The translations under genes and the position numbers were made by a program. A stretch of DNA of 27,320 bases from a virus: IMG/VR virus record IMGVR_UViG_3300021142_001958, positions 1 through 27,320 of that record; one strand, written 5' to 3'. The notes beneath the pieces are model-generated. The model was not told the DNA's origin. It did no database searches and was given only the letters and a program-made list of their open reading frames with translations. Below, in pieces: positions 4,191 through 23,859 of this stretch (positions are counted from its first letter, which is position 1; each line of letters opens with the position of its first letter).

Positions 4191-4198
4191 TATAAATA
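4191..4198 (+). promoter_or_regulatory. T4-type late promoter for HEG1
   Basis: Exact TATAAATA on the plus strand, 103 bases upstream of the GIY-YIG gene at 4294. This is the T4 late promoter consensus read by RNA polymerase carrying gp55 (also encoded here). T4 homing endonuclease genes such as I-TevI are likewise late-transcribed. Confidence 0.65.
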
Positions 4199-4205
4199 CA
4201 GTAAT

Positions 4206-4234
4206 AGTATACAACTATTACATACAAAAGTAAA
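4206..4234 (-). promoter_or_regulatory. Sigma70-like promoter for 44-62-regA
   Basis: On the minus strand TTTACT (4234-4229), 17 bases, then TATACT (4211-4206). The spacing is ideal and both hexamers match the sigma70 consensus at 4-5 of 6 positions. A transcript would start near 4199, 27 bases before the gp44 ATG. It lies inside the region also used by HEG1 in the other direction. Confidence 0.55.
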
Positions 4235-4237
4235 TAC

Positions 4238-4287
4238 ACCATCCGCGATACCGTAAATATCCGATGGTTTTAACGTACTAGTGGTAC
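4238..4287 (+). promoter_or_regulatory. Two-hairpin leader of HEG1 (shared with HEG2)
   Basis: Hairpin 1 pairs ACCATC (4238-4243) with GATGGT (4263-4268), with inner GATA (4247-4250) / TATC (4258-4261). Hairpin 2 pairs GTAC (4275-4278) with GTAC (4284-4287), just before the ATG at 4294. The same arrangement, with altered but still paired bases, precedes HEG2 on the minus strand at 23834-23784. Pairing next to the start suggests translational control; the function is inferred. Confidence 0.6.
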
Positions 4288-4293
4288 ATCAAC

Positions 4294-5028
4294 ATGAATA
4301 CTTATTCAAGAAAAAATCCACCAAAAGGATTTTACGTTTATTTCTATCTCCGCGACAAAGATTCCAAAACGGCCACAAAAGGAACTCCATATTACGTGGG
4401 TAAGGGGAGCACAGATAGAGCTTGGGAACCTCATGGAAAAATACCAGTACCGAAAAATAATTCGCTTATATTAATACTACATTCAGAATTATCAGAAACT
4501 TATTCATTTATATTAGAAAGATATTATATAAAATGGTTTGGTAGAAAAGATAATAGAACTGGGATTTTATTAAACAGAACCGATGGCGGTGAAGGAGTAT
4601 CAGGTTTAATTCATTCACAAGAATCCATCCAAAAAAGAATAAACTCGAATACAGGAAAAAAACGTTCGAAACAAGCAAAATTAAACATAAGCAATAGTAG
4701 AAAAGGAGTATCATCGTCGGTTAAAAAAGGAGACGTTAGACTTCAATCTACCAAAGAAAAAATATCCAATAAATGTTTAGAAAGAGTAAAAAACAAATCA
4801 CATAATCTATTAAAACAAAAAGATGGAAGTTCTGTAGCATCTAACTTATCCAAAATAGGACAACACAACTGGCAGAAAACAAAAAATTTGGTTAAATGTT
4901 ACGATAAACAAGGCAATTATATGTTAATAACCACGGACGAATATAGGACACAAACAGGAGATATGCGATTATGGGAATATGTATCCGTGGCTAGTAACGA
5001 AGGAAAACGTAGGAAAAATAATTTATAA
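4294..5028 (+). CDS. Free-standing GIY-YIG homing endonuclease (HEG1)
   Basis: A 244-residue GIY-YIG nuclease. The degenerate GIY motif is FYVYFYL (13-19), the YIG motif is YYVGKG (33-38), and the catalytic-type glutamate is E75 in [14 protein letters not shown]. Residues about 106-140 ([10 protein letters not shown]... [16 protein letters not shown]) are NUMOD3-like DNA-binding repeats. It sits on the opposite strand to the replication genes, between 44 and the dsbA-like gene, and its stop abuts the dsbA-like stop at 5028/5029, a typical intergenic insertion of a mobile endonuclease. About 60% of residues match HEG2 over the nuclease domain by eye. Both HEGs share a late promoter and a hairpin leader. 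It probably cuts related phages lacking the insertion. Confidence 0.88.
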
Positions 5029-17886: not shown

Positions 17887-18569
17887 TGTGTGGAGTTATT
17901 GGGGCAATACTCAAATCTCCTTCTGACAAAGAATTTTCTTTGGTGCGTAACGCATTCCACGAATCCAAAATTCGTGGAATGCACGCAACAGGATTATCTT
18001 ATGTTAAAAATGGACAATTGATTACGATTAAAAAATCTGTATCTGCTGATAAATTCGATGAGTTAAATCATCTTGCTGAATTTGTGAATGAAGACGGTAA
18101 CTTATATCTAATAGGACATTGTAGATATTCAACTTCCGATTTAGTTTACAATCAACCTATATCCAATGGAAATCTATCCGTGGTTCATAATGGGGTTATT
18201 AGCCAAGAACTATTTGATAATTGGAAATATTTTTATGGATATGATTGTTCTACTAAAAACGATAGTGAATTACTTCTTCATACATTAGAAGATCAAAAAG
18301 ACGTATTTGAAATATGGAAAGATTCTTCAATGGGCGTTTGTACGTTGAATGTCAATAAAGAATTGATTTTCTATAGAAATGGAAAAAGGCCAATATATTT
18401 TACAGAATTTGATTCGGGAATATTAATAGGATCAACAAAAGATATTCTAATTAGAAGCGGATTACAGAAAATTATTGAAGCGGAACCGTTTGTATATTAT
18501 ACTATACGCGATTTGAATCTGTTATACAATTATCCGCAGGACAGAGGAATAGATTTACAAAATGGATAA
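17886..18569 (+). CDS. Class II glutamine amidotransferase (glutaminase domain)
   Basis: A 227-residue Ntn-hydrolase glutaminase. It begins MCGVIGAI, exposing the nucleophile cysteine C2 after methionine removal. Further family marks are RGMHATGLSY (30-39), GHCRYST (77-83) and VVHNGVI (99-105). The protein is only the glutaminase half; there is no synthetase or phosphoribosyltransferase domain as in AsnB, GlmS or PurF. It would liberate ammonia from glutamine for a partner, plausibly the amidoligase two genes on. Overlaps both neighbours (by 1 and 8 bases). Confidence 0.88.
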   Translation: MCGVIGAILKSPSDKEFSLVRNAFHESKIRGMHATGLSYVKNGQLITIKKSVSADKFDELNHLAEFVNEDGNLYLIGHCRYSTSDLVYNQPISNGNLSVVHNGVISQELFDNWKYFYGYDCSTKNDSELLLHTLEDQKDVFEIWKDSSMGVCTLNVNKELIFYRNGKRPIYFTEFDSGILIGSTKDILIRSGLQKIIEAEPFVYYTIRDLNLLYNYPQDRGIDLQNG

Positions 18570-19350
18570 ATTATTAATATACATTCCTACTCTTGGTAGA
18601 GAAGGTAGACAAATTACGTTAAAATCGATTCCAGAAGAATGGAAAGATCGTGTATTTTTGGTATGCCCTTCCGCAGAAAATCACGAATGGGATAACAGAA
18701 TAGACGTTCCAGAATATTGTATAGGAAGTGTTGCTAAAACAAGGCAATTTATTCTTGATTCTAGTGAATCTAAATTCGTTGGTATGTTGGATGACGATCT
18801 ATCGTTTTATGAAAGAGATTCTATTATTTTAACTAAGACAACTAGATTAGAATCAATAGAAAAATATTTTTCTTTGATGGAGAGTTGGTTGATGAGCGGT
18901 GATGTGTATTGTACACAAGCTAACAGTTTTATGTCGCATAATAATCCAGAAGAATATTATTATGGAAAGCCATCCCATTCACATTTTGTTAATAGGGATT
19001 ATTTGAAATCTAAAGATATCCGCTTCGATGCTTTAAGTTATTTTGAAGATTTTCACGTACCTTTATCAGTACTTGAATGTGGTAAAAGGTTGAGAATTTC
19101 TGGTAAATACATAGCTAAAGAAAAAGAAGCAAATGCTTCTGGTGGATGTTCAATAAACAGAACAGCAGATAATAATAAAACTGCTATGTATAAACTTCAA
19201 GAACTGCATCCAAAGTATGTGACTTTAAAAGAAGAAGAAGGTGCTACTAATCAAAATTTGGTAGTTGATTTAAAGATGCGTATATCTTTTAAAAAAGCAT
19301 ATGATGATAACGTAATAAAAAATAGTGGTATTTTAGATGATTTCATGTGA
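18562..19350 (+). CDS. TET-associated-type glycosyltransferase (GT-A fold)
   Basis: A 262-residue protein. Opening YIPTLGREGRQITLKSIP is the nucleotide-sugar-binding start of a GT-A fold, and MLDDDLSF at 75-82 is the DxD-type metal motif (D77-D79). FEDFHVPLSVLECGKR follows the acceptor half. Phage TET/JBP genes are known to sit next to a dedicated family of such enzymes (TAGT), predicted or shown to glycosylate hydroxymethylated bases. The family placement is from gene context and overall pattern. It overlaps the glutaminase gene by 8 bases and the amidoligase by 14. Confidence 0.72.
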   Translation: MDKLLIYIPTLGREGRQITLKSIPEEWKDRVFLVCPSAENHEWDNRIDVPEYCIGSVAKTRQFILDSSESKFVGMLDDDLSFYERDSIILTKTTRLESIEKYFSLMESWLMSGDVYCTQANSFMSHNNPEEYYYGKPSHSHFVNRDYLKSKDIRFDALSYFEDFHVPLSVLECGKRLRISGKYIAKEKEANASGGCSINRTADNNKTAMYKLQELHPKYVTLKEEEGATNQNLVVDLKMRISFKKAYDDNVIKNSGILDDFM

Positions 19351-22354: not shown

Positions 22355-23122
22355 ATGGCTAGTATTGTTAATTCTGCTGCGGATACCGCAGAAGTGCCAC
22401 TTCTCAATAAGTCGTGGCTTGCTGGAGCCTTTAGTATCTATTTCGTATTCTATATTTGGGTACGTTGGTATGAAGGTGTTTTTGGTTGGGCTGCTGGACT
22501 TGATTCCTTTGCTCCTGAGTTTGAAACCTATTGGATGAATTTTCTTTACGCGGAGATTGTTCTTGAGGTAACAATTGCCTCAATCCTTTGGGGTTTTATT
22601 TGGAAAACTAGGGATCGTGATTTTTCTGCCCTGACTCCACGTGTCGAACTGCAACGTAATATGACGCATTTAATTTGGTTATTTGCTTATGCAAATGCTA
22701 TTTATTGGGGCGCTTCATATTTCACTGAACAGGACGGTACTTGGCATCAAACCATTGTTCGTGATACTGACTTTACACCAAGTCATATCATTGAATTCTA
22801 CCTCTCTTATCCTATCTACATTATTACTGGATTTGGAGCATTTCTTTATGCTAAAACTAGACTTCCTTTCTTTTCAGAAGGATTGTCTCTTCCTTATCTT
22901 GTAACTGTAGTTGGTCCGTTTATGATCCTTCCAAACGTTGGTCTTAATGAATGGGGACACACCTTCTGGTTTATGGAGGAACTTTTTGTGGCTCCTCTCC
23001 ACCTAGGTTTTGTTGTATTTGGATGGTTAGCACTTGCAATCGGAGGTGTTTTATTACAAGTATTTGACTCCTTTTCAAGACTCATTGGTGAGGAATTATT
23101 ATTTGTAATGAACGATAAGTAA
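22355..23122 (+). CDS. pmoC: Particulate methane monooxygenase subunit C (PmoC)
   Basis: A 255-residue integral membrane protein, the C subunit of pMMO, near the full family length. Several membrane segments are visible (e.g. 22-37, 62-83, 104-123, 145-165, 178-195, 217-236). The copper-C ligands D127, H131 and H144 (EQDGTWHQ ... TPSHIIE) and the copper-D ligands N198, H202 and H216 (GLNEWGHTFW ... APLH) are all present. Sequence such as DSFAPEFETYWMNFLY and HQTIVRDTDFTPSH is PmoC rather than AmoC. The last ~15 residues (IGEELLFVMNDK) differ from the usual ...EAVDxGLIxK ending. G+C in one sampled 60-base line is 43%, against 22% in a line of the neighbouring kinase gene, suggesting host acquisition. 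Preceded by a late promoter, followed by a terminator. Confidence 0.97.
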   Translation: MASIVNSAADTAEVPLLNKSWLAGAFSIYFVFYIWVRWYEGVFGWAAGLDSFAPEFETYWMNFLYAEIVLEVTIASILWGFIWKTRDRDFSALTPRVELQRNMTHLIWLFAYANAIYWGASYFTEQDGTWHQTIVRDTDFTPSHIIEFYLSYPIYIITGFGAFLYAKTRLPFFSEGLSLPYLVTVVGPFMILPNVGLNEWGHTFWFMEELFVAPLHLGFVVFGWLALAIGGVLLQVFDSFSRLIGEELLFVMNDK

Positions 23123-23136
23123 AAACTTATCAAAAC

Positions 23137-23166
23137 AAAAAAGGGAGGAAAAACCTCCCTTTTTTT
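23137..23166. terminator. Bidirectional terminator between pmoC and HEG2
   Basis: AAAAAAGGGAGG (23137-23148), loop AAAAA, CCTCCCTTTTTT (23154-23165): a 12-bp perfect stem with T-run on the plus strand. The minus-strand read likewise ends in T-rich sequence. It lies between the convergent pmoC and HEG2 and would terminate both; HEG2's stop codon overlaps its edge. Confidence 0.85.
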
Positions 23167-23779
23167 ATATTTTATGTTTACAATTATCAAAATGATATCT
23201 TGTCATATTCCCACCTCCACCAGATATTCCACAATGAGGACAAGTAATATTTTTTATATTTCTAGTTTTATATAATCGTCCTTCTTTATATTCTGGTTTC
23301 GAGTCTTCTGGATATATATGATATGATTTTTCATCATCGTGATACCACCGTTTACCTATACAATGTTTTCCTCCAGTATCTTTAAATTTTTGTATAGTAT
23401 CTTCAGTATATACTCCTACTTTTCCTTTGTTCCAAGGAAGTTGTCCTGTTTTCTTGCCCTTATTCCAAGGTGTGTATGGTTTTCCTTTATTCCACGGTGT
23501 TCCACCAGATAGACCTTCACCACCATCTGTCATATTTCTTAGAATGCCTGTGTTGTTATCTTTTCTACCAAACCATCTAATGTAGTATCGTTCTTGAATG
23601 AACGCTTGACATTCGGTTAGGTTCTGTGATATAATAATGTTTCTGTTTAGGTCTTTTGGAACTGGAATATTTCCATGTTTCTGAAATCTTCTTTTTCCAG
23701 AACCTTTACCGACATAATATGGAGTGAAATCTTCTCTTAAATAGAGATAGACATAAAAGTGTGACTGATAAATACTCAT
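23165..23779 (-). CDS. GIY-YIG homing endonuclease with C-terminal zinc finger (HEG2)
   Basis: A 204-residue GIY-YIG nuclease starting at the ATG at 23779, which has AGGAG eight bases upstream; the frame extends to 23821 but without homology. Motifs are YVYLYL, YYVGKG (21-26), catalytic-type E63 in [14 protein letters not shown], and [15 protein letters not shown]. Next come NUMOD3-like repeats of the type PWNKGK (three copies). A C-terminal zinc finger, [12 protein letters not shown]...HFDNC, completes it. The nuclease domain is close to HEG1. It lies convergent with pmoC just past the pmoC stop, and a second pmoC 3' end lies 0.7 kb beyond its promoter, suggesting it homes into the pmoC region. 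Confidence 0.9.
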
Positions 23780-23783
23780 GCTG

Positions 23784-23834
23784 ATACTCCTGTTTAGTAT
23801 TAGAACCCATAGATACGCCAATATCGTGATGGGT
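23784..23834 (-). promoter_or_regulatory. Two-hairpin leader of HEG2
   Basis: Read on the minus strand: outer stem ACCCAT/ATGGGT (23834-23829 with 23810-23805), inner GATA/TATC (23825-23822 with 23815-23812), then a second stem ATACT/AGTAT (23800-23796 with 23788-23784). The AGGAG ribosome site (23791-23787) lies partly in this stem. Same plan as the HEG1 leader, with compensated changes. Likely delays translation. Confidence 0.6.
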
Positions 23835-23851
23835 ATTTTTATTGACTATGG

Positions 23852-23859
23852 TATTTATA
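23852..23859 (-). promoter_or_regulatory. T4-type late promoter for HEG2
   Basis: TATTTATA on the plus strand, i.e. TATAAATA on the minus strand, starting 80 bases upstream of the HEG2 ATG. As for HEG1, the endonuclease appears to be a late gene. Confidence 0.65.

Follow-up and report, generated by a model that had tools for sequence, protein, structure and literature searches.

Covarying two-hairpin elements at the starts of phage homing endonuclease genes: a structure very probably carried by the opposite strand and a candidate mobile antisense RNA

Two homing endonuclease genes in one viral record are each preceded by a leader that can be folded into two hairpins, and the question raised by this locus is on which strand these hairpins are selected and what they do for a mobile gene. 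The window, by which we mean the whole stretch of 27,320 nucleotides that was analysed, is a viral record of 27 kb in which T4-type replication genes and an amoC/pmoC gene are found. A sequence-only reading had described the two leaders and a late-promoter motif upstream of each, and inspection of the sequence showed both leaders and both motifs to be present. The products of the two genes, HEG1 and HEG2, share 61% identity over the matched catalytic region. The features on the endonuclease strands are as follows.

4294..5028, plus strand: HEG1, GIY-YIG-type homing endonuclease gene, 244 aa (ORF list)
23165..23779, minus strand: HEG2, GIY-YIG-type homing endonuclease gene, 204 aa from the ATG at 23779 (ORF list; PHROG homing-endonuclease match; tblastn relatives)
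4238-4268, plus strand: HEG1 outer leader hairpin ACCATC-CGC-GATA-loop-TATC-C-GATGGT, followed by GTAC/GTAC (sequence)
23834-23805, minus strand: HEG2 leader hairpin ACCCAT-CAC-GATA-TTGGCG-TATC-T-ATGGGT, followed by ATACT/AGTAT into AGGAG (sequence)
4191..4198, plus strand: late-promoter motif TATAAATA for the HEG1 message (sequence)
23852..23859, minus strand: late-promoter motif TATAAATA for the HEG2 message (sequence)

HEG2 is adjoined by the amoC/pmoC-family gene (22355-23122, plus strand; PF04896, E 1.8e-119); freshwater phages carrying pmoC have reportedly been described in one study. The stretch at 18562-19350 (plus strand) matched a TET-associated glycosyltransferase (TAGT, PF20691), which suggests modified phage DNA bases.

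Relatives of HEG1 and HEG2 identified in viral contigs by tblastn were found to have the same leader. A pattern search with GGAGNATCAGCATGANNAT returned at least 120 stretches, and most of those listed carry the leader ahead of many different proteins; the pattern requires a canonical Shine-Dalgarno sequence and an ATG and thereby biases the set, copies lacking them being found later with the models R1 and R2. Covariance model R1, built from 57 leaders with HEG1 and HEG2 among them, gave scores of 84.2 bits for HEG2 and 64.6 bits for HEG1 and returned 114 matches, amounting to 107 distinct copies, in environmental viral contigs. Judged from these sequence comparisons, the HEG1 and HEG2 leaders are members of one family, far beyond chance. 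Large viral contigs held up to 13 copies each and, among the named phages examined, the only one with the element was Pseudoalteromonas phage vB_Psh_XG4, with a single copy at 56134-56217 of PP712099. S-PM2 gave no match with model R1 or R2, T4, KVP40 and HTVC008M likewise had no model match, short-query blastn against named phages yielded chance matches only or none, and a pattern scan over prokaryote genome contigs found nothing. For the elements in the window and at 14 loci, no Rfam 15 family scored above its gathering threshold, the best sub-threshold match being the Hsp17 thermometer (20.7 of 45 bits). SymR of E. coli, to which the element is compared below, has an Rfam family.

Covariation in further homologues had been proposed as a check on the leaders, and across the 107 distinct copies the stems are maintained through numerous compensatory changes. 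Of the 16 pairs in the sense alignment, 14 were changed on both sides and 93.4% of pairs were standard; the covariation score was 0.667 in the true register and at most 0.126 in any slid register, and RNAalifold recovered the same helices unaided. The antisense alignment, which comprises a smaller and different set of copies, had 13 of 19 pairs changed on both sides with 99.4% standard pairs, and in a wider antisense set that included divergent copies this rose to 16 of 19, all such covariation counts being of sequences and not of events. On the strength of these alignments, the two hairpins are real and form a conserved structured RNA, and the earlier view of a covarying structure that moves with endonuclease genes is supported. 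Besides the stems, a single-A junction, a G-Y-G bulge and a near-invariant G-U third pair of the second hairpin (P2) are conserved; the hairpin loops are not. The short second stem that had been described next to the start codon does exist, but it really extends over 8 bp (CTAAYRCT/AGYATCAG in sense) and is fully paired only on the opposite strand, by way of G-U pairs, where it reads CUGRNNNN/NNNNYUAG.

G-U pairs are tolerated in RNA helices and A-C mismatches are not, so the two strands of a covarying helix can be told apart. On the endonuclease strand of the 107 copies, helix mismatches comprised 108 A-C against 4 G-U cells, which are not independent of one another, one P2 pair being nearly always G-U on the opposite strand, but whose sign is constant except at the loop-closing pair, to which all four G-U cells belong. 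The freely varying outer stem of the first hairpin (P1) had 17 A-C and 0 G-U on this strand, and P2 alone 176 A-C and 2 G-U; in nearly all copies the sense P2 contains one to three A-C mismatches, whereas the antisense P2 is fully paired. The 107-copy alignment had been made with a sense model, so any bias could only be towards the sense strand. In 40 distinct further copies from seven phage genomes, none of which was used in model building, the antisense strand showed 79 G-U against 3 A-C. The divergent P2 copies of L069, L126, L117, L014 and XG4 pair well only with antisense G-U, and in 102 of 108 copies the antisense strand had the lower predicted folding energy, the mean difference being 4.5 kcal/mol as against 2.1 for shuffled sequences. 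Because these mismatches appear as G-U opposite the endonuclease gene and as A-C on its own strand, we conclude with high confidence that the selected structure lies on the opposite strand, from which the folded RNA would be made. The earlier placement of the structure in the endonuclease's own 5' leader is not supported by this count. Extending the sense helix as a simple clamp on the ribosome-binding site was also considered and rejected, since it would need A-C pairs. Translation of the endonuclease is likely held back, as had been suggested, but by the opposite-strand RNA. More generally, the case shows that a conserved structure can be reassigned from one strand to the other on the asymmetry of its wobble pairs.

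Read on the antisense strand, the element consists, in order, of an ATAAATA motif, the 8-bp hairpin P2, one unpaired A, the bulged hairpin P1 and a U-tract. Its features in the window are listed here.

23768..23774, plus strand: ATAAATA late-promoter motif opposite HEG2, within HEG2 codons 2-4 (sequence; spacing; nucleotide-level constraint)
23780..23834, plus strand: proposed HEG2 antisense RNA to the end of the second hairpin, predicted +1 at G23780 (G-U versus A-C asymmetry; antisense alignment; T4 late-promoter spacing)
23781..23803, plus strand: HEG2 hairpin P2, CTGATACT / AGTATTAG, 8 bp, third pair near-invariant G-U (antisense fold and alignment)
23805..23834, plus strand: HEG2 hairpin P1, ACCCAT-A-GATA-loop-TATC-GTG-ATGGGT (sense and antisense alignments)
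23835..23846, plus strand: U-tract (ATTTTTATTGAC) after HEG2 P1, terminator-like (sequence; U-rich tail in all copy classes)
4299..4305, minus strand: ATAAGTA, one mismatch to the ATAAATA late-promoter motif, within HEG1 codons 2-4 (sequence)
4238..4293, minus strand: proposed HEG1 antisense RNA, with P2 arms at 4270-4277 and 4285-4292, linker at 4269, P1 at 4238-4268 and predicted +1 at 4293 (sequence; covariance model; G-U/A-C count; folding)
4206..4234, minus strand: sigma70-like promoter TTTACT-17-TATACT just past the HEG1 antisense RNA, towards the gp44 gene (consensus match only; shuffles give as many)

In HEG2, A23804 is the single unpaired linker between P2 and P1, and the loop and 5' arm of P2 contain the complement of the endonuclease Shine-Dalgarno sequence. 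Across the family this complement was found inside the RNA in 60 of 61 copies, and an ORF lay on the strand opposite the element in 44 of 44 new copies, nearly all of them of endonuclease length. The endonuclease genes with the element at their starts are of GIY-YIG, HNH, TnsA-like and other types, NUMOD3 and DUF559 being further families among the 54 element-bearing proteins that were scanned. At L018 (2413-2560), L195 and L196 it is an upstream ORF of 17 codons, and not the endonuclease's own start, that the RNA covers; the stop codon of this ORF overlaps the start of an HNH endonuclease gene (ATGA), an arrangement that recalls mok-hok coupling. Three of the 54 scanned ORFs matched phrog_218 (head closure) and two a TnsA-like domain; the phrog_218 matches may reflect either an endonuclease fold common to a phage head protein or annotation carry-over. 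Near an element-bearing endonuclease gene, matches to permuted tmRNA (RF04321) and alpha tmRNA were recorded at L055 (3211-3561, minus strand) and L108 (633-983, minus strand).

The motif opposite the first codons is constrained as DNA. Codons 2-4 read ANT-ATT-TAT; codon 2 varies freely at its second base but ends in T in 88 of 92 cases (P about 3e-21). The Ile codon within the motif is ATT in 86 of 96 cases, compared with 667 of 1775 in the bodies of the proteins (P about 5e-25), and the Tyr codon is likewise biased far beyond the bodies of the same proteins. The distance between ATAAATA and P2 is 6 nt in about 100 of 107 copies; this spacing is kept where the start codon has moved upstream, and the motif is kept in other reading frames (M-L-F-I, M-Y-L-F). 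Related endonucleases that lack the element show no M-x-I-Y start. A protein-level cause of this start was ruled out by the copies in other frames, the codon bias and the different starts of element-free relatives. ATAAATA is also enriched upstream of ORFs in the element-bearing contigs, and NATAAATA is a known late promoter of T4-like cyanophages (PMC2984593). From the spacing of T4 late promoters (PMC2988020), transcription is predicted to start one base before P2.

At the other end of the element, P1 is followed by an A, one base and a U-rich stretch. In most copies this tract overlaps the endonuclease gene's own late-promoter motif, as the complement of ATAAATA, and copies without the sense ATAAATA mostly retain a tract of U5-U7. 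A consensus terminator scan did not call P1, which is interrupted by bulges that such a scan disallows. The U-tract is a plausible RNA end.

We propose that the element specifies a mobile cis-antisense RNA restraining translation of the homing endonuclease, and we would give this mechanism in full an even chance of being correct. Codons 2-4 of the endonuclease gene would conceal a late phage promoter (NATAAATA) that drives an opposite-strand transcript of roughly 60 nt, which would begin one base before P2, run through P2, the single A and P1, and end at the U-tract. Such an RNA would be fully complementary to the ribosome-binding region, its complementarity extending from P1 across the start codon or to just short of it, and by covering the Shine-Dalgarno sequence it would most likely restrain late endonuclease translation. 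The P2 loop, which displays part of the Shine-Dalgarno complement, is the likely first contact, and the unit would move with its gene, having become joined to unrelated endonuclease families. This reading is favoured because the layout matches that of SymR on symE and because CfrI provides a precedent in S-PM2. Simple antisense action could dispense with the single-A junction, the G-Y-G bulge and the near-invariant G-U pair. Their conservation suggests an additional binding partner and leaves room for a protein partner or for a put-like role. At one locus (L039) the endonuclease gene has been deleted and the RNA element retained, but its flanks are 97% identical to those of L078, which marks the loss as recent and of little value as evidence on function.

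Comparison of a filled with an empty site (L094 and L143) placed the boundaries of the insert about 54 nt upstream of P1 and at the endonuclease stop codon, the insertion point being the stop/start junction of two host genes. The endonuclease gene runs opposite to both neighbours at 56 loci and co-directionally with both at 15. In many copies the U-tract is followed by a sigma70-like promoter directed at the adjacent host gene, strong examples (such as TTGACA-17-TATAAT) lying upstream of P1 in L094, L131, L090, L081, L048 and L132, and these outward promoters suggest that the insertion restores expression of the neighbouring host gene. The gene beyond the element points the other way in 23 of 106 copies, and a 5' leader of the host operon was disfavoured as the sole function, about a fifth of the copies facing an oppositely oriented gene.

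This context bears on a different explanation, in which the element is an insulating terminator read in the antisense direction. Since the endonuclease genes mostly lie opposite the host operon, such a terminator would stop operon or antisense transcription over the endonuclease promoter, and a new sigma70 promoter beyond it would restart the downstream host gene. The preference for opposite orientation, the insertion at a junction between the stop of one gene and the start of the next, and the sigma70-like promoters just past the U-tract all fit; we nevertheless regard this explanation as unlikely, since it does not account for P2, for a promoter motif held at a fixed distance inside the endonuclease gene, for the conserved bulge or for the co-directional insertions, and the excess of sigma70-like promoters (27 of 83 opposite versus 4 of 23 co-directional insertions, P 0.20) is not significant on its own.

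A trans-acting RNA or ribonucleoprotein, which would bind a phage or endonuclease protein or pair with other messages, was judged quite unlikely. It would give a purpose to the single A, the bulge and the G-U third pair, none of them needed for antisense pairing, and genomes carry up to 13 copies of which many share at least 9 nt within the first 33 nt of the RNA, but the element always lies opposite an ORF start, its loops are not conserved and it is carried by unrelated endonuclease families. Slightly more doubtful is a put-like antiterminator, in which the RNA would form the 5' end of a late transcript, bind RNA polymerase and promote read-through into the downstream host gene: the general shape, with an interrupted stem II, is that of HK022 putRNA (PMC9378689), but this likeness is one of shape only, a U-tract directly follows P1, and the element also occurs next to downstream genes of the opposite orientation.

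Hairpins in the endonuclease message that sequester its own ribosome-binding site, the model of the sequence-only reading, are strongly disfavoured; the endonuclease strand does still form most of the pairs and P2 overlaps AGGAG, but every set of copies shows a G-U/A-C asymmetry in favour of the other strand, P2 is mismatched on the endonuclease strand in nearly all copies and folding is weaker there. Least credible of all is a single-stranded DNA hairpin on the strand opposite the endonuclease gene, serving replication or recombination, which G-T pairs in the abundant single-stranded DNA of T4-like phages would endow with the same asymmetry, but for which we know of no partner enzyme and against which the promoter motif at fixed spacing, the U-tract and the Shine-Dalgarno coverage point to RNA.

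Returning to the cis-antisense reading, copies in the same genome share part of the RNA that covers the Shine-Dalgarno sequence, and on this ground one may speculate about a phage-wide network in which the antisense RNAs of resident cassettes silence each other's endonucleases and those of incoming phages. Although we think such cross-silencing improbable, it would, if true, bring the logic of type I-like toxin-antitoxin systems and of cross-immunity to homing endonucleases.

Among known systems, the closest in layout is SymR of E. coli, whose promoter lies inside the symE ORF, which is complementary to the 5' end of symE, folds into two strong hairpins and tightly represses its target (PMC1891008). 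The element likewise has an opposite-strand promoter motif inside the target ORF (ATAAATA over codons 2-4, a candidate promoter), complementarity to the region where ribosomes bind the target message (60 of 61 copies) and a compact two-hairpin form. SymR, however, belongs to a bacterial chromosome and to the SOS-regulated SymE toxin, whereas here we find a mobile phage endonuclease cassette with late phage promoters, covarying stems, a conserved bulge, many copies and no Rfam match. CfrI is an experimentally detected antisense RNA over a homing endonuclease gene in the T4-like cyanophage S-PM2 (PMC2984593); unlike the element it is about 225 nt long and also overlaps psbA, and membership of the element in CfrI was rejected, S-PM2 having no match to R1 or R2. 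HK022 putRNA, of about 70 nt, has two stem-loops at the transcript start, with an interrupted stem II, and acts in cis on RNA polymerase (PMC9378689), its antitermination working through the zinc-binding domain of the beta-prime subunit. Compared by shape only, the element shares two stem-loops, a size of about 70 nt in all and a predicted position at a transcript start, but it has a U-tract, none being described for putRNA, which is not tied to endonucleases.

In T4 I-TevI, I-TevII, I-TevIII and segB and in Aeh1 mobE, hairpins on the endonuclease message sequester the ribosome-binding site and are combined with late promoters; in T4 the hairpin itself contains the late promoter, and late messages therefore avoid folding (PMC2988022). 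Hairpins near the starts of T4-like homing endonuclease genes together with late promoters are thus common to both. Here, however, the selected structure is on the opposite strand and not on the endonuclease message (108:4; P2 176:2), and in HEG1, HEG2 and most copies both stems lie downstream of the late-promoter motif, from which a late start at 3-nt spacing would trim only a couple of P1 bases. How phages' free-standing homing endonucleases are kept in check is known only for a few T4-type cases, in which each gene has a hairpin of its own; if the proposed mechanism is true, one RNA family, with a promoter probably in the first codons, would be common to many unrelated endonuclease families and many phages, and would offer a direct way into the question of how selfish genes restrain the damage they do.
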